From assembly GCF_001443605.1 (NCBI RefSeq), contig NZ_CP013118.1:1871501-1935500 (forward strand): a stretch of DNA of 64,000 nucleotides, given 5' to 3'. The notes beneath the pieces are model-generated. The model ran no database searches. It was given only the letters and a program-made list of their open reading frames with translations, and was not told the DNA's origin. Shown here piece by piece: positions 8,025-52,853 of this stretch. Positions within the stretch are counted from its first letter, which is position 1, and every line of letters begins with the position of its first letter. A program made the position numbers and the translations under genes. The DNA comes from Salinivirga cyanobacteriivorans (GTDB lineage: Bacteria; Bacteroidota; Bacteroidia; Bacteroidales; Salinivirgaceae).

Positions 8025-8123
8025 GTACTACCATATTTTTAAACATTTGGCGGTTCCATCTTGTCATACTGAAGCAAACATAAAACACTAAATTTAAGCA
8101 AATTAAAGAGACAGTTAAATACT

Positions 8124-15186: not shown

Positions 15187-15244
15187 CACTTCTCAAAGCT
15201 TAAAACAATGAAACCAGCATATTTAAAATAATTATTTTTAAAAA

Positions 15245-15303
15245 TGCGGTTCCATCAGATAGCCATCGGATGACCACTAATATCAAAATTATAAACATAT
15301 GAA
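15245..15303 (+). repeat. Dispersed leader repeat, copy 1
   Basis: Contains GCGGTTCCATC, a short hairpin-like spacer, then the 33-base core at 15271-15303 that begins TGACCACTAA and ends ATAAACATATGAA. The ATG at its end opens only a 15-residue reading frame (15299-15346), so this copy looks like an orphan leader. The same core recurs at 15406-15438, 47889-47921 and, inverted and diverged, 52598-52653. Confidence 0.7.
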
Positions 15304-15405
15304 CCGAGCCATGATCCGCCGGCTTGCGGAACACACACCAGCATGATTATAAGGAAGCTAATAGACCATTTGACGTGTAATTGAAACATCATGGCGAGCT
15401 CCATA

Positions 15406-15438
15406 TGACCACTAAAATCAAAATTATAAACATATGAA
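15406..15438 (+). repeat. Dispersed leader repeat, copy 2 (contains the start codon of the next gene)
   Basis: Matches copy 1 over the 33-base core with one difference (TGACCACTAAAATC here, TGACCACTAATATC there). It ends on the ATG at 15434 of the beta-barrel gene. Upstream, ACACACACCAGCATGATTAT and AACATCATGG also resemble the sequence before copy 3 at about 47845-47880, so homology extends to roughly 100 bases. Confidence 0.75.
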
Positions 15439-15958
15439 AAAGATCATCATAATCCTCTTTCTTTTTATATCAACCGCCAATGCCTACAGTCAGTTTACTT
15501 ATGGGCCGCGGTTCGGATTTGGCGCCACTACCATTGAAAATGTCAATGCTGGATTTGGGTTTCACGCAGGCGTATTTATCAATGCTGAAATTTTTGACAG
15601 ATTTGGCGTTCAGCCAGAAATCATTTACAATTTCCAAACCGGAAGCGATGAAGAAGATGCAGCTGGCACAACTATCGACATTGATTATAAACACCAAACC
15701 ATAGATGTGCCGATATTGGTTTTCTTCCCATTATCAGACCATCTAAGGGTACTGGTCGGACCAATGCTTTCGACCATTTCATCTGCCACAAGAGAGGTAG
15801 ATGGAGAAGAGGACGACACCTATAACCCTGAAGCTAATGCAGGATTTGCTGTTGGAATAGAAACAGACACATTCTCCCGTTTAAGATTCGGAGCTCGATA
15901 TAGAAAAGCCGGAACAAGCAGCATAGAGGTTACAGCATCATATACTTTAGACTGGTAG
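15434..15958 (+). CDS. Outer-membrane beta-barrel protein (PorT/OmpX-like size)
   Basis: 174 residues with a signal peptide (MKKIIIILFLFISTANAYSQ) followed by about eight alternating amphipathic strands: FTYGPRFGFGATT, GFGFHAGVFINAE, RFGVQPEIIYNF, IDVPILVFFP, LRVLVGPMLS, AGFAVGIETD, LRFGARYRKAG and the terminal VTASYTLDW. This matches the small outer-membrane beta-barrel family common in Bacteroidota. The start codon lies inside a dispersed repeat, so its translation leader is shared with the gene at 47917. A weak hairpin (15969-15986) with a later T-run follows. It precedes a secreted caspase-like gene by 65 bases. Confidence 0.75.
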   Translation: MKKIIIILFLFISTANAYSQFTYGPRFGFGATTIENVNAGFGFHAGVFINAEIFDRFGVQPEIIYNFQTGSDEEDAAGTTIDIDYKHQTIDVPILVFFPLSDHLRVLVGPMLSTISSATREVDGEEDDTYNPEANAGFAVGIETDTFSRLRFGARYRKAGTSSIEVTASYTLDW

Positions 15959-31148: not shown

Positions 31149-34100
31149 TTATTTAATAATCATCTGTCTGGTCAATTGTTTATTGCCGTTTCTGAAAACT
31201 ACAAAATACACTCCGGAGCTCATATTTGTTACATCAAGCTCTGCATTATCTGAACCGGCTTGCATAACCTTATGCAACTTACCATTCATATCAGTTATCA
31301 TAATCATACCCGTATATCCGTCTGGAGTTTTTATATGAACGCTATATGCTGCAGGATTAGGATAAATTGCAAAGGACTCGTCCATGTTTGCCTCAATTCC
31401 TGTGAGGTAACGTACATTCACTGTCCAGACCCTTACATTAGCTTCATTCTGTGAAGTAACAGTATACGAAACCGGAGTTGAGAAATCATTTACAGTTGTA
31501 CCACTTTCCTGTAATACACCATCAACTTTGGCCACGGCCCCCGAGCTGAGCTCAAAATTAGCTACGAGTTCATCTCGTGGTGTCCCGGATGGGATATCGA
31601 CATATATACTGTTCGAGTTGTTGTAAATTGTGGTTTGTTGTTCAGAAGGTGGTATATCCTGGAAATAGTACGACAAAATTTCTGCTGAAGCATTCTGGTT
31701 TATGGTTACCTGTACGGTCCAATCTTGCGTGTCGGTTCCGTTTTCAGCAACAATGGTGTATGTAACCGGACTGCTAAAATCTACAATATTTTCACCACTC
31801 CATTGTATTTCGCTGCCAATATAGGCTATTGCTCCATCTGACAAATAAAACATTGGAATTAATGCCTCAACGTCGAGATCTAGTGATAGGTTTACAGCAA
31901 TGGTATGTGTTTCGTAATTAATTTCAGCAGGATTGGTTTGTCCATAAAAGCCAAAATATTCAAACAGTGTTGCATTGTTCATATCACCTATTACGGCTAC
32001 ATCTACATACCACGTTTTTGAGGGGCCATCAGCCGGGGTAAGACGATATGCTACAATTTGTGTAAAATCATTTACTGACACACCACTCTCCTGAACTGTA
32101 CCGTTCACCGTAACAGTTGTACCATCAGCAACTTCAAATGTGGCTGCAAGGCTGGTTATATCGGTACCGGCCGGCATCTCCACTCTAACAAAGGCATTTG
32201 CCATGTCAATTACGCCATCCTGTCCGTCAATACTATAGGAGATAAAATCAGCAGGTGAAATAGTCTGCTCGCTCACTGTAACTGTCCAGTCGGCAGTTGT
32301 GGAGCCATCCTGTGCGGTTATGGTATATACCACTGGATTTGTAAAATCATTTACAGTAACGCCACTCTCCTGCACTTCTCCTTCAACGGAAGCAGTTGCA
32401 CCCACCGAAAGGGTAAAATCAGCTACTAATGCAGACAGATCAGTTCCCATTGGCATAACCACATTCACGGTTTGATTTACGGGATTAACATCTGCAGAAA
32501 GCTGGTCGGGTATGCTGTAGGTTAATATCTCTGTTTCTGAAGAAGCTACCGTAGTAACTGTAACGGTCCAATCTTTTGTAGTAACTCCGTCTTGAGCTGT
32601 AACAGTATATAGTACCGGATTTGTAAAATCATTTGGGGTCGATCCGCTAACCTGCTCTACACCACTAACAGTTGCAGTAGCGCCGGTTGACAATGTAAAT
32701 TCAGCAACAAGACTGGTCAAATCTGTCCCAAGCGGAACCTCCACATCTACTGTTTGCGCACCGGCATCAATAACTGAGGTAATCTGACCAGGTAAAGTGT
32801 AGGTCAATATATCGGCTTCGCTTGAAGCATTAATGGTTACGGTGACGGTCCAGTCTGCTGCGGTAACACCATCTTCTGCCGTTACGGTATACACTACAGG
32901 AGTGGTAAAGTCGTTTGCAGTGGTTCCGCTCACCTGCTCCACACCGCCAACTGTAGCAGTAGCTCCGGGCGAAAGTGTAAATTCAGCTACCAAATTGGTT
33001 AAATCAGTTCCGGCGGGCATCACAACATCAACGGTTTGTTCACTTGCGTTTATTTGAGAGCTCTCCTGGCCTGGGATATCATAGCTTAAAATATCGGTAC
33101 CATTCGATGCATTAATGGTTACGGTGACGGTCCAGTCTACTGTGGTAACATCATCTTCTGCCGTCACGGTATACACTACAGGGCTGGTAAAATCGTTTGC
33201 AGTGGTTCCGCTAACCTGTTCCACACCGCCAACTGTAGCAGTAGCTCCGGGCGAAAGTGTAAATTCAGCTACCAAATTGGTTAAATCAGTTCCGGCGGGC
33301 ATCACAACATCAACGGTTTGTTCACTTGAGTTTATTTGCGAACTCTCCTGGCCTGGGATATCATAGCTTAAAATATCGGTACCATTTGAAGCAGCCTCCT
33401 GCACTGTAACTGTCCAGTCTTGAGTAGTTGTACCATCTTCAGCTGTAACGGTATAAACCACAGGATGTGTAAAATCATTTGCTGTGGTTCCGCTCACTTG
33501 CTCAGTACCATCCACGGTGGCTGTGGCACCGGCTGAAAGGGTAAAATCGGCCACAAGGTTTGTCAGGTCTGTCCCCGCAGGCATGGTAACTTCTATAGTT
33601 TGGTTTTGTGTATTGATGTTAGAACCGACCTGATTCGGAATGCTGTAATCAATAATTTCTGTCGCATCTGAAAGCTCTACATTAACTGTAACCGTCCAGT
33701 TTTTGGTAGTTGTGCCGTCTTCGGCTGTCACCGTATACACAACAGGGGCTGTAAAATCATTAGCTGTGGTTCCGCTTACCTGCTCAGTACCGCTTACTGC
33801 AGCAGTGGCACCGGGTGACAGGGTAAAGTCAGCCACAAGGCTGGTTAAGTCAGTACCCTGGGGCATTGTAACATCAATTGTCTGATTATTGGCATCAATT
33901 TCAGAAGTGATCTGATTTGGGAAACTGTATGATAATATCTCGGCTTCACTACTTGCAGGTAATTGTTGAGGTTCAACGTTAACCCATATCGCCGGAGTAG
34001 CTTCGGCATACTCTACCGCTCCATCAATAGCCAACACGCAACGTAAGTCGTAGGGTGCGTAGCTGTCCGGGTCGTTGGCTATGGTAATGCGCCCCTCGTC

Positions 34101-34982
34101 TGTTAAATCATTGCCATTAAAAATGTAAAGCATAAATAAATATTCGCTTTCATTACTAATGGTCATAGGACTAATAAGCGACATGGTTATCATTGAATTG
34201 AGATCATCACTTGTTAAATTTTTGGGATTTGTTTGTGCAATAGCACTTGAAAGATCCCATAGCCCTGTACTTTGGTTTCTTGGATAAACAACTCCCACAA
34301 AGGTGGCATTTCCATTTTCAATTACGCCTGTAAAATCATCTTTAAGATAAGTAGTCATAGAATTTACCTGGTAGGGATCTTCTGCAGGTTCCGGAAAATA
34401 AACAGCTATTCCGATGCCATCCTGATTGCCTGCACTGAGTGTATCAACCAGGGTAAAAGAGCCTGACAGGTTGTCTTTATCGGCAAATCCATAGGTGCTG
34501 TCTGAAAGCACATAATTAAGCGTAGTCTGGTTGTTGGACACATTGCCATCATTTGCACTTATAAGAGTTGCCGAAAGTGCATAGTCATTTATTTCCTGAT
34601 AGTTCACAGCCTGACCAAAAAGAATGGTATCAGACTCACCAGTAGAGAGGGTATAATTACTGGATTGATCAAAAACTACATTTGCAGCTCCTGAAGGATC
34701 GGCAGTTAAATTAAGCTGCCAGTCAAATGTAATAGCCTCTTCGCCGGGGTGCGAAACGGGTAATGCTACCGGATCGAAACCATTGAAAAGATGCACGGGC
34801 ATATAATGATACCCTCCCCAGTAGGGTTTTGTTTGATCCTGGAAATTATAATCCGGCACAGTGCCTTTAATCGCTGGCCAAATATTTGTTACGCCAAGAT
34901 CGACATCCTGTGCTTTTATCGGGCCATAATTTAATAAAATGGCCATAACCAAAAACGGAAAAAGTAGTTTTCTTATTTTCAT
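31149..34982 (-). CDS. T9SS-secreted surface protein with nine DUF5018-like repeats
   Basis: 1277 residues from MKIRKLLFPFL; signal peptide to about residue 25. Residues 26-340 form a unique beta-rich domain. Nine tandem units of about 90-95 residues follow (about 342-1195); each starts like ILSYDIPGQ, has a V-MPAGTDLT-LVA-FTLS core, VSGTTANDF and ends YTVTAEDG...DWTVTV. Units 3 and 4 are almost identical also at DNA level (282-base period), units 7-9 are diverged. A type A Por sorting domain (FAIYPNPA to RQMIIK) ends the protein. An upstream TTG (35021) is not used because it would precede the signal peptide. Probably an adhesin or stalk; ligand unknown. Confidence 0.85.
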   Translation of the reverse strand: MKIRKLLFPFLVMAILLNYGPIKAQDVDLGVTNIWPAIKGTVPDYNFQDQTKPYWGGYHYMPVHLFNGFDPVALPVSHPGEEAITFDWQLNLTADPSGAANVVFDQSSNYTLSTGESDTILFGQAVNYQEINDYALSATLISANDGNVSNNQTTLNYVLSDSTYGFADKDNLSGSFTLVDTLSAGNQDGIGIAVYFPEPAEDPYQVNSMTTYLKDDFTGVIENGNATFVGVVYPRNQSTGLWDLSSAIAQTNPKNLTSDDLNSMITMSLISPMTISNESEYLFMLYIFNGNDLTDEGRITIANDPDSYAPYDLRCVLAIDGAVEYAEATPAIWVNVEPQQLPASSEAEILSYSFPNQITSEIDANNQTIDVTMPQGTDLTSLVADFTLSPGATAAVSGTEQVSGTTANDFTAPVVYTVTAEDGTTTKNWTVTVNVELSDATEIIDYSIPNQVGSNINTQNQTIEVTMPAGTDLTNLVADFTLSAGATATVDGTEQVSGTTANDFTHPVVYTVTAEDGTTTQDWTVTVQEAASNGTDILSYDIPGQESSQINSSEQTVDVVMPAGTDLTNLVAEFTLSPGATATVGGVEQVSGTTANDFTSPVVYTVTAEDDVTTVDWTVTVTINASNGTDILSYDIPGQESSQINASEQTVDVVMPAGTDLTNLVAEFTLSPGATATVGGVEQVSGTTANDFTTPVVYTVTAEDGVTAADWTVTVTINASSEADILTYTLPGQITSVIDAGAQTVDVEVPLGTDLTSLVAEFTLSTGATATVSGVEQVSGSTPNDFTNPVLYTVTAQDGVTTKDWTVTVTTVASSETEILTYSIPDQLSADVNPVNQTVNVVMPMGTDLSALVADFTLSVGATASVEGEVQESGVTVNDFTNPVVYTITAQDGSTTADWTVTVSEQTISPADFISYSIDGQDGVIDMANAFVRVEMPAGTDITSLAATFEVADGTTVTVNGTVQESGVSVNDFTQIVAYRLTPADGPSKTWYVDVAVIGDMNNATLFEYFGFYGQTNPAEINYETHTIAVNLSLDLDVEALIPMFYLSDGAIAYIGSEIQWSGENIVDFSSPVTYTIVAENGTDTQDWTVQVTINQNASAEILSYYFQDIPPSEQQTTIYNNSNSIYVDIPSGTPRDELVANFELSSGAVAKVDGVLQESGTTVNDFSTPVSYTVTSQNEANVRVWTVNVRYLTGIEANMDESFAIYPNPAAYSVHIKTPDGYTGMIMITDMNGKLHKVMQAGSDNAELDVTNMSSGVYFVVFRNGNKQLTRQMIIK

Positions 34983-35014
34983 GGGTATTAATTTATCGTT
35001 GCAATTAGAGTAAA

Positions 35015-35054
35015 TGTACAAATGATTCCTTAATTCATAAAAACAATTTGTACA
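35015..35054. promoter_or_regulatory. Inverted repeat upstream of the nine-repeat protein gene
   Basis: Nine-base arms TGTACAAAT (35015-35023) and ATTTGTACA (35046-35054) separated by 22 bases, 33 bases upstream of the ATG. Spacing of about three helical turns centre to centre would suit two regulator dimers or a looped operator; no regulator is identified. Confidence 0.4.
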
Positions 35055-45480: not shown

Positions 45481-45600
45481 CGGGGTGTAGCACAGTCCGG
45501 CTCCGATTTTGTCAAACTGCGTTTGATTACAAAATCGTGAGTCCTCGAAAAAAAATGCAATCACAGATTGCTGTTTTTTCGGGATTAGTGTGCCAGCCAG
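45481..45600 (+). pseudogene. Interrupted 5' fragment of tRNA-Pro
   Basis: Bases 45481-45500 are identical to the first 20 bases of tRNA-Pro (45656-45675). Then about 80 bases intervene, forming two hairpins: CGATTTTGT ... ACAAAATCG (45504-45537) and a longer imperfect one centred on GCAATC-ACA-GATTGC (about 45545-45582). After that GATTAGTGTGCC resumes the D loop (compare GGTTAGTGTGCC in the real gene) and the tRNA similarity stops. It has no 3' half, so it cannot be a working tRNA. Confidence 0.7.
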
Positions 45601-45655
45601 CCCGCACCACATTCACAGGTGACAAAATAAAGTGATGACGAACTTAAAATATTTA

Positions 45656-45730
45656 CGGGGTGTAGCACAGTCCGGTTAGTGTGCCTGCTTTGGGAGCAGG
45701 AGGTCGCAGGTTCGAATCCTGCCACCCCGA
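45656..45730 (+). tRNA. tRNA-Pro(TGG)
   Basis: 75 bases. Acceptor CGGGGTG/CACCCCG, D arm with CACAGTCCGGTTAGTGTG, anticodon arm CCTGC-TTTGGGA-GCAGG with anticodon TGG, T arm GCAGG-TTCGAAT-CCTGC, discriminator A; CCA not encoded. No separate promoter is visible, so it may be read from the tRNA-Ser promoter. Followed by a terminator and by truncated copies of itself. Confidence 0.95.
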
Positions 45731-46076
45731 CATTAAAAAGGTTGATCGTTTGCGGTCAGCCTTTTTTTATGGTTAAAAAAACCGAGTGTATAATTAATCG
45801 AGTGACTTCAAAAAAATCACAGATTGCTGTTGTTTCGGGATTAGTGTGTCCCGATTTCGGATCGGGAAGGTCGCAGGTTCGAACCGACGAGTATAACGAG
45901 GAGCTCGCGAAGCAATCCTGCCACCCCGACATTAAAATGGTTGATCGTTTGCGGTCAGCCTTTTTTTATGGTCAAAAACCGAGTGTATACTAAATCGATT
46001 GACTTCAAAAAAAAATCACAGATTGCTGTTGTTTCGGGATTAGTGTGTCCCGATTTCGGATCGGGAAGGTCGCAGT
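45722..46076 (+). repeat. Direct repeats of tRNA-Pro 3' end, terminator and hairpin module
   Basis: A unit of about 199 bases starting CCACCCCGACATTAAAA occurs at 45722 and 45921. Each has the tRNA-Pro 3' acceptor strand, terminator, an AT-rich spacer with CCGAGTGTATA, TCACAGATTGCTGTTGTTTC and the module TCGGGATTAGTGTG, TCCCGAT-N5-ATCGGGA, then GGTCGCAG of the variable/T-arm. In the first unit the T loop (GGTTCGAA) is split by about 30 bases (45885-45913) before AATCCTGCCACCCCGA completes the tRNA 3' end. The second unit stops inside the T arm at about 46075. Bases 46077-46227 show nothing identifiable. Confidence 0.8.
45738..45768 (+). terminator. Terminator behind tRNA-Pro
   Basis: AAGGTTGATCG/CGGTCAGCCTT stem (two G-U pairs) with TTTG loop and seven T residues. 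A second copy stands at 45938-45967 after the pseudo-tRNA. Confidence 0.85.
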
Positions 46077-46330
46077 AAACCCAATATTTATTGTTTTACA
46101 TGAAGCCTGAACGGTTAACAAATCTGCCCCGGATTCTAAAACAGAAACATAAAGAGTCGCCTCCTTAGCATAGGGAAAAAGTAAAACGAGAAAGCCAGCA
46201 GGCCTATCTGCCTCTTTGTTTTAGGTAGTGTCCAGATTAGTGTGTCTGGGTTGACCTATTATTAGTAATGCATTCTTTCAATACAAACTTATATTTTTTT
46301 CGTTGATTTATTTGTTCTAAATGCTTTTAA

Positions 46331-47626: not shown

Positions 47627-47876
47627 GGTTTCTGACTTTTATTGTTTTACTTTTTAATTCATTGCAAAACTAATAATAGTTGGGAACCATGTGTTTTAGA
47701 CACACTTTTTTGGACGGTATGTTGTTTTACAAAAGACCCGGAAAGACATAGTAGCATAAATTGAAAAATCCCTCGAAATTAGTATTTTTGCCTTCCATTC
47801 AATAGCGAAACAAAATGAAACAAGCATGATTAAAATAATTATTAAACACACACGCAGGAATGATTATTTTACATCA

Positions 47877-47921
47877 TGCGGTTCCATCTGACCACTAAAA
47901 TCAAAATTATAAACAGATGAA
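47877..47921 (+). repeat. Dispersed leader repeat, copy 3 (contains the start codon of the GT9 gene)
   Basis: TGCGGTTCCATC is followed directly by the core TGACCACTAAAATCAAAATT and ATAAACAGATGAA, matching copies 1 and 2 except for one base before the ATG. The sequence before it (AAACACACACGCAGGAATGA, ACATCATG) resembles the DNA upstream of copy 2 at about 15340-15395. The ATG at 47917 starts the next gene. Confidence 0.75.
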
Positions 47922-49011
47922 ATTATCCGGGGTAAAGTTTGATTGTAAGCATTTCCGAGGAACAATCCCTTGCAAACCAAACAAGCAACATAACGTACAG
48001 TGCGACAACTGTCCATATTATGAAAAATGGGAAAAGCACATCCTCATAATCAAATTGGGGGCAATGGGTGATGTAATACGCACCACACCCCTGGTAGTTA
48101 AATACCGGGAGTTATACGAAAATGTTCATTTCACCTGGCTTACAGACTTTCCAGATGTATTACCCCCTTCCGACATTCAGGATATACTTAAGCCTACAGC
48201 ATTCAACCTTGAAAAAATTAAAAATCGCACTTTTGACATAGCCATTAACCTGGATAAAGAAGAGGAGGCCTGCCAGCTCTTGGCCGATGTGGATGCAAAT
48301 GAAAAATACGGTTTCATCTGGAACAATGGCCATTTAGATGCCGCGACACCTGCAGCCGAACACAAAATTATCACCGGATTATTCGATCATATTTCAATAA
48401 AAAACACAAAATCGTATCCCGAAGAAGTTTTCGAAATATGCCATCTTAAATTTAACCTGGAAGAGTATTTATTAAACTACAATAAGTCTATTGCAGAAAA
48501 ATGGCAGGGGTTATTAAAGGAAAAAGCCAATGGCCGTAAAATAGTCGGCCTCAATACAGGTTGTGGTAACAGGTGGCTAACCAGGTTATGGCCCAATGAC
48601 TATTGGATACAATTCATAAACCTGCTCGATCACGATAAAGTATTGCCCGTTTTATTGGGTGGGCCACAGGAAGACGAGAAAAATACCTGGTTGGCAAAAC
48701 AAACACAAGCCTGGTATCCGGGCACCTTCTCGCTTGAAGAATTCATTTCACTCACCTCAAATTTAGATGCTGTAGTTACGCAGGTAAGCATGATGATGCA
48801 CATTGCCGTAGGGCATAAAACCCCAATGGTACTCATGAACAACATCTTTAACAAACATGAATTTGAAATGTATAACCGCGGCGTAATCGTAGAACCTGAA
48901 ACAGGTTGCGATTGTTACTATGGTAACAAATGCAAAAGATCGCGGTCGTGCATGTTTGATCTGAGGCCAGAAACTGTAATGAATGAGGTAAACCAACTAT
49001 TGAAGATATAA
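47917..49011 (+). CDS. Glycosyltransferase family 9 (heptosyltransferase-like) with Cys clusters
   Basis: 364 residues. The GT9 core is seen in HILIIKLGAMGDVIRTTPLV (42-61), FDIAINLDKE, KIVGLNTGCGNRW and VTQVSMMMHIAVG, the ADP-heptose:LPS heptosyltransferase pattern. Unlike classical heptosyltransferases it has four cysteines at the N-terminus (10, 19, 29, 32) and four near the C-terminus (331, 333, 339, 345), suggesting a metal or Fe-S site formed by both ends. Its start codon lies in a dispersed repeat. A GT4 gene follows after 3 bases, and gmhA (heptose precursor) lies 2.7 kb away, consistent with LPS core or surface glycan synthesis. Confidence 0.82.
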   Translation: MKLSGVKFDCKHFRGTIPCKPNKQHNVQCDNCPYYEKWEKHILIIKLGAMGDVIRTTPLVVKYRELYENVHFTWLTDFPDVLPPSDIQDILKPTAFNLEKIKNRTFDIAINLDKEEEACQLLADVDANEKYGFIWNNGHLDAATPAAEHKIITGLFDHISIKNTKSYPEEVFEICHLKFNLEEYLLNYNKSIAEKWQGLLKEKANGRKIVGLNTGCGNRWLTRLWPNDYWIQFINLLDHDKVLPVLLGGPQEDEKNTWLAKQTQAWYPGTFSLEEFISLTSNLDAVVTQVSMMMHIAVGHKTPMVLMNNIFNKHEFEMYNRGVIVEPETGCDCYYGNKCKRSRSCMFDLRPETVMNEVNQLLKI

Positions 49012-52597: not shown

Positions 52598-52653
52598 CAT
52601 ATGTTGATTTTTAATGGTCATAACCTGTCCCGATGACTAATCGGGATGGAACC
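52598..52653 (-). repeat. Dispersed leader repeat, diverged copy 4
   Basis: On the minus strand: GGTTCCATC, then the hairpin TCCCGAT/ATCGGGA, then TTATGACCATTAAAAATCAA and CATATG. This has the same order as copy 1 (GGTTCCATC, CATCGG, TGACCACTAA, ATCAA, CATATG). No gene begins at this CATATG. The surrounding gap 52309-52853 holds no gene that I can support. Confidence 0.5.
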
Positions 52654-52698
52654 TTCTATTACCAGTTTTACAGTTTTTCATCTTCCAAATAATCATAC

Positions 52699-52772
52699 TC
52701 GTGCCTTGCTTCGCTGAAGCCATGCGAAGGCGCAGCCTTGCCCCGCCGAAGCTACGCGAAGGCGAAGTGTGC
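52699..52772. repeat. GC-rich paired inverted repeats
   Basis: Segments GCCTTGCTTCGCTGAAGC, CATGCGAAGGCG and GCCGAAGCTACGCGAAGGCG form at least two overlapping hairpins (CTTCGC/GCGAAG type) in otherwise AT-rich DNA. The composition is foreign to the surroundings and looks like a small palindromic repeat of the REP/BIME kind. Confidence 0.45.
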
Positions 52773-52853
52773 TTAAACATTTAAATGGAGGTTTAATAAA
52801 TTATTCGTAATTTGAATGTCATAACAGACACATTTTAACTAAATACTGCAACC

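Follow-up and report, generated by a model that had tools for sequence, protein, structure and literature searches.

HEARO and IscB omega-RNA elements are mobile and structured and have a preference for ATGA-like sites. IS200/IS605 elements and the MITEs derived from them have strand-specific ends without inverted repeats and insert 3' of a fixed short site, with a strong preference for the next base. For instance, IS608 inserts 3' of TTAC, its guides pair with the cleavage sites and TTAC followed by C is preferred (~70%), and ISDra2 prefers TTGAT followed by G (~90%), as described in the accessible text of PMC5934647. REP and REPIN sequences, which are associated with RAYT (TnpA-REP) proteins, are small, structured, gene-less repeats present in many copies. 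Canonical REPs carry a 5' GT[AG]G foot, whereas RAYT subclass 2.6, which occurs in Bacteroidetes, is flanked by atypical structures lacking this tetranucleotide, according to the available part of PMC6006769.

Here we describe a repeat family of Salinivirga cyanobacteriivorans that is represented in a 64-kb stretch of its genome (the window, that is, the whole stretch of DNA analyzed). We think it likely that its members are gene-less mobile elements of Bacteroidota, ~90–200 nt in length, which use an IS200/IS605-like guide mechanism and whose 3' end forms a usable leader. It is the combination of a fixed pentanucleotide at both ends, the lack of inverted repeats, a covarying guide and a preference for the next base that points to this type of mechanism. 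As in IS200/IS605 elements and their MITEs, insertion would take place 3' of a fixed short site with a strongly preferred next base, and an internal guide is predicted to pair with the cleavage site, here on the basis of sequence covariation (compare the accessible text of PMC5934647). The ends are likewise strand-specific and without inverted repeats, and the fixed short target, ATGAA, is kept at the left flank with no other target duplication, as seen from the ATGAA that delimits the element on both sides in 47 of 66 genomic places and from empty sites in relatives. Unlike in IS200/IS605 elements, a single guide appears to be used for the two ends, which carry an identical ATGAA, the putative left stem is long-range and no linked TnpA was found. 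The family resembles REP and REPIN sequences in its small, structured, gene-less and abundant copies. However, the GT[AG]G foot is absent from the element sequences, no linked RAYT was found, and start-codon endings are not described for REPs in the available part of PMC6006769. In contrast to HEARO and IscB omega-RNA elements, no nuclease or transposase gene was seen inside any copy, and the HEARO covariance model (RF02033) gave no match in the window and 22 element loci. An Rfam scan of the same sequences found no family match, intron and cis-regulatory families included, and a known RNA family was rejected, the listed hits in element loci being below the gathering score and outside the element. 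A family of this kind was not found described in the titles and abstract openings of the open-licence literature.

Copies in the window, the genome and the phylum

A preliminary description of the window reported a 33-nt core at 15271–15303, 15406–15438 and 47889–47921, and these placements are borne out by the window sequence. The core is a real repeat, but it is not the whole unit: it forms the right (3') end of an element whose first bases are ATGAA (at 15208, 15299 and 47815, respectively). The first copy (15208..15303, + strand; 96 nt, profile score 32.8 bits) is diverged and lies between a 5' ATGAA at 15208–15212 and a 3' ATGAA at 15299–15303; as described before, its ATG at 15299 opens a frame of 15 codons only. 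The second copy (15299..15438, +; 140 nt, subfamily A, 84.9 bits) forms a tandem pair with the first, with ATGAA 15299–15303 common to both, and its terminal ATG is the start codon of an outer-membrane beta-barrel gene (15434..15958, +; 174 aa, PF13505). Near this end, CATATG at 15402–15407 can pair with CATATG at 15431–15436 to form a predicted hairpin, P2 (15402..15438, +), with the ATG inside the second arm. The third copy (47815..47921, +; 107 nt, subfamily B, 42.8 bits) is one of three identical copies at unrelated genomic loci and provides the start codon of a glycosyltransferase family 9 (GT9) gene (47917..49011, +; 364 aa, PF01075), so that the two genes named earlier as starting on core copies, at 15434 and 47917, indeed do so and belong to unrelated families. 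In its P2 hairpin (47885..47921, +) CATCTG can pair with CAGATG, which is compensatory to the second copy.

What had been reported as a diverged inverted copy is a decayed, subfamily C-like copy at about 52598..52800 (−), which scores 23.7 bits for 52601–52703, its 5' limit being judged by eye. It contains a second hairpin repeat and ends in CATATGCAA, with no start codon there. This second, dispersed repeat (TTCGCC...GCGAAGC...) is found at about 52704–52780 of the window and at three further loci (L010, L033 and L150), and it occupies the same internal spot, an ACAC box, in several element copies. The sequence near 8050, upstream of copB, that had been proposed as a remnant scores −3.1 bits (E 3.1 in 701 bases) and was rejected as an element copy. 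Other repeats in the window are ~199-nt tandem repeats at 45554–46246, which adjoin two tRNA genes, and six 282-nt repeats within a 1290-aa reading frame at 31149–35021 (−).

When up to three mismatches are allowed, the core matches the whole 4.81-Mb host genome at 34 sites, compared with none for a reversed-pattern control. A sequence-only profile search detected at least 82 copies at E ≤ 0.01, grouped into 66 places; this count is a lower bound, as 150 of 3114 first-look candidates were scored. From the flanks of 30 fetched copies, the full unit starts with ATGAA and ends with ...AAACAKATGAA, and the copies cut out of this genome measure 96–197 nt. The 3' ATGAA is present in 58 of the 66 places and the 5' ATGAA is as conserved. 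Terminal inverted repeats are absent, as the left end (ATGAAMC...) is not the reverse complement of the right (...CAKATGAA). There are single and tandem copies, located at start codons, in intergenic DNA or within genes; units in tandem runs share ATGAA, for example four units at 824925–825480. In otherwise alike copies (L012, L021, L154) a 23–24-nt hairpin module, CCCGAT..ATCGGGACAGGTAA, is either present or absent in the guide region, and it looks as if it were exchanged separately. The orientation of the 66 places relative to replication (42 on the leading strand, with the origin placed from GC skew) is no different from that of genes (238 of 386).

Related sequences are found beyond the host. 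Matches at E ≤ 0.001 are present in at least 15 of 60 genomes and, in a phylum-wide draw, matches at E ≤ 1e-4 in at least 4 of 296, the host being included in both; these figures and the copy counts in relatives are lower bounds, with 55 and 11 candidates scored per genome, respectively, and under these searches the host itself gives only 56 and 11 matches. Elements of this anatomy also occur in other orders and in another class; it is readable in a genome of the same class with 14 matches and tandem units (G253) and in a genome of another class with three matches (G199). In the relatives that were read, 27 of 33 non-tandem copies have a terminal ATG that begins a frame of at least 60 codons. 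Among named records, the exact core occurs on four contigs from three Bacteroidales or Salinivirgaceae metagenome assemblies.

Target site, empty sites and new start codons

Mobility is seen from comparison with relatives. When the joined flanks of 11 of the 66 places were compared with two genomes of the same genus (G001 and G002), those at purA and lpxB gave a single alignment through the junction in both, with the gene start present and the element absent, and place 3568735 gave an uninterrupted alignment through the junction in G002, again with a gene start and no element. For several other queries mainly the gene side aligned, and three (463800, 1584910 and 1854194) had no orthologous match in the two genomes. 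Some copies split genes. At place 3307806 the joined flanks restore a PF05635 four-helix-bundle protein (E 3e-21) and at 4239055 a PF13568 outer-membrane barrel encoded on the opposite strand (E 4e-9); in both cases the family match spans the junction. The copy at 1370946 is situated close to the end of an HD-domain gene, past the matched domain, and that at 463800 lies inside an open frame without a Pfam match. As judged from the comparison with relatives, the copies are mobile.

The preliminary description had proposed a mobile leader and had made this depend on a relation of copies to start codons genome-wide. Mobility and the predominance of start-codon endings both stand: of the 58 places in which the 3' ATGAA is intact, 39 have a terminal ATG that begins a frame of at least 60 codons, the 8 of 66 places without a 3' ATGAA being left outside this count. 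Host genes that start on an element ATG include, by family models, purA, lpxB, metH (of which the N-terminal part was read) and a C-terminal processing peptidase, as well as a FabK-like gene whose family score is below the cut-off; the target genes look unrelated to one another. For comparison, 464 kb of the host genome, with simple ORF calls of at least 80 aa and the upstream-most ATG, contain 1937 ATGAA sites, 107 at starts, 169 intergenic and 1661 coding, and ATGAA begins 107 of the 386 called genes. Outside coding sequence, starts thus make up 39% of ATGAA sites (107/276) versus 67% of element places (Fisher p 1e-4), an association ~1.7-fold above that predicted from survival outside coding sequence alone. 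In 49 of the 58 places the 3' ATGAA is followed by A. This preference holds at start places (33/39 versus 52/107 native ATGAA starts, p 1e-4) and at non-start places (16/19 versus 78/169 intergenic sites, p 0.003). The start codon as the recognized signal is rejected by the insertions inside genes: since copies lie there too, the target, judging from the insertion sites, is ATGAA, preferably followed by A, rather than a start codon as such.

We hypothesize that an HUH/Y1-type single-strand transposase acting in trans cuts after ATGAA and inserts the element between ATGAA and a following A. After insertion at an ATGAAA start, the gene would begin on the ATG of the element and the protein would be unchanged, because the element ends in its own ATGAA after an A-rich, leader-like stretch, and the original start codon would be left upstream, reading a mini-frame. 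With the protein left intact behind a new leader, start codons would thus be sites where insertions survive. In the 47 of 66 places used for flank counts, the old start codon reads a mini-frame of 2–56 codons, which ends across the new ATG in two.

The 3' end of the element is similar to the A-rich, Kozak-like translation leaders of Bacteroidota, for which the accessible text of PMC6847099 describes, in Flavobacterium, an A-rich leader motif, a favourable effect of A at −3 on translation start and a link between low structure around start codons and good translation. Native ATGAA starts in the 464-kb sample are A-rich at −10 to −13 and the element has A at −11 to −14. In contrast to these leaders, the element has C rather than A at −3 (54 of 58 places), and its leader belongs to mobile DNA.

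A putative internal guide and its predicted pairings

The putative guide is an internal GTTCCAT-NN-G, which would pair with the cleavage site ATGAA, either at the right end, as P2, or alternatively at the left end, where ATGAAAC can pair with GTTCCAT. RNAalifold predicted no pairs on a first alignment (A1), and the pairing was therefore tested directly on an alignment built without structure (A2; 118 rows from 100 chosen sources). Left out were 13 rows without end columns, and of the remaining 105 the 32 that carry the hairpin insert were counted apart. In copies without the insert, the terminal C-NN-ATG can pair with the internal CAT-NN-G. The main variable pair of P2 is standard in 67 of 73 such copies, compared with a mean of 33 and a maximum of 49 in 10,000 shuffles that ignore the relatedness of copies, and it occurs as six types (A-T, C-G, T-A, G-C, T-G and G-T). 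A second variable pair (T-A) is standard in 69 of 73, also above its shuffles (maximum 67), and a third, nearly invariant pair (G-C) is standard in 67 of 73, which is not above them (mean 67). All six P2 pairs are formed in 57 of 73 insert-free copies, and 5 of the 15 distinct exceptions are of the subfamily D type with TTCATT or TTAATT at the guide, TTCAT being the exact complement of ATGAA. In the insert-bearing copies P2 is interrupted in 32 of 32 and the variable pair is standard in 24 of 32. Among 15 hand-picked members, 92% of P2 cells pair, compared with 16–32% for slid partners.

A second stem, P1, would join the left end over a long range to the bases just before the guide. None of 600 permutations of 16 hand-picked subfamily members reaches the observed value. 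P1 is nevertheless only suggestive, because swapping within the larger set gives no clear result (mean 5.49 versus 5.08 for swaps, maximum 5.51) and RNAalifold found nothing on A1. The left-boundary pairing of the guide is seen in one of four predicted folds. Folding z-scores for four copies are −1.55, −5.66, −2.26 and −2.48 as RNA and −1.14, −1.12, −4.23 and −0.43 as single-strand DNA. The loop closed by P2 in plain copies is A/T-rich, 23 nt long and has an inner helix of at most 3–4 bp (in 3/4 RNA and 3/4 DNA folds); these copies lack a subterminal hairpin directly 3' of each guide and, unlike IS608, have no strong hairpin between the guide and the right cleavage site.

Mobilization, alternative explanations and implications

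The search for a mobilizing enzyme covered Y1 transposases and RAYTs and did not reveal one. At 35 of 36 Y1 matches in the host and seven relatives, a motif scan of ~1.5 kb on each side revealed no gene with the element at its flanks, and in the absence of a tnpA sharing the element ends at these loci the Y1 transposases were rejected as the parent insertion sequence. A separate 847-nt unit at about 1393.1–1395.6 kb of the host (L079, L080) contains an intact Y1 transposase gene, has REP-like GCCCCTTCAGGGC ends and is present as a tandem duplicate with identical transposase genes. The host also has a RAYT-like gene (2617559–2618119, −; L082), preceded within 3.2 kb by four GGGGTCAG...CCGAAA repeats, which are possibly its own REP.

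That the element itself serves as REP for a domesticated RAYT, for example one of subclass 2.6, is in our opinion improbable. It would be in line with the occurrence of this subclass, with its atypical flanks, in Bacteroidetes (available part of PMC6006769) and with the presence of a RAYT like that of the host in six of the seven genomes with at least four element matches versus 13 of 60 overall, the host included. Yet this co-occurrence failed in an independent set, in which a RAYT is present in 8 of 20 genomes lacking an element match and the three with matches have a 31%-identity hit only (G253), a RAYT (G351) and none (G199), and RAYT was rejected as mobilizer. Furthermore, a genome with 10 element matches (G056) is without RAYT, no RAYT locus that was read is flanked by intact copies, and another type of repeat lies upstream of the host RAYT; in G034, one decayed copy is found in antisense orientation within a RAYT gene. 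An ordinary DDE-type MITE, whose 5-bp target duplication happens to be ATGAA, would also produce the direct repeat at both ends, but the lack of terminal inverted repeats and an invariant duplication with complementarity to an internal guide make this very improbable.

Two further alternatives place the function of the element in RNA. It could be a cis-regulatory RNA, a translational switch at start codons copied by recombination, with mobility secondary and P2 hiding the start. P2 does hold the ATG, and of 48 plain copies at start codons 40 have it intact. The fold is also shared by members from different orders and from another class, and low structure near start codons is linked to good translation in Flavobacterium (accessible text of PMC6847099). 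However, copies whose ATG opens no gene have an intact P2 at a similar rate (14/18; 3/7 inside tandem arrays), and this near-equality argues for a role in mobility first, with P2 kept whether or not a gene follows. As some copies split genes, the 5' ATGAA is conserved like the 3' one, the target genes look unrelated and there is no Rfam match, we give the regulatory explanation little credence, to the same degree as a RAYT-derived REP. An intron-like RNA, spliced from the mRNA, would restore the native leader and start codon. Removal of the element does restore an uninterrupted gene start with its native A-rich leader, and the guide can pair by sequence with either boundary, the left pairing being present in one of the four predicted folds. 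Self-splicing introns known so far are well above 90–200 nt, though, and the Rfam scan found no match in the loci scanned, intron families included, so that this is the least probable of the explanations considered.

A bolder version of the guide-directed transposition that we favour is a mobile start-codon latch, in which the guide reads ATGAAA as a landing site, P2 encloses the new start and the left pairing of ATGAAAC with GTTCCAT is the open state. We regard it as unlikely, if somewhat less so than the regulatory RNA; if true, each jump would put another, even essential, gene under one translational switch, and a regulon would be spread by transposition across Bacteroidota.

Gene-less elements of the single-strand type are already known, and it is the targeting of a start-codon sequence together with a self-supplied leader that is unusual. 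By using a common host start context and bringing a leader that fits, a selfish element can enter important genes and leave them intact, which would provide a route for wholesale exchange of 5' leaders between genomes. Gene-start prediction would be misled, because the old start codon and its mini-frame stay upstream of each insertion at a start. With this family, guide-directed transposition and translation initiation without Shine-Dalgarno sequences could also be tested cleanly.
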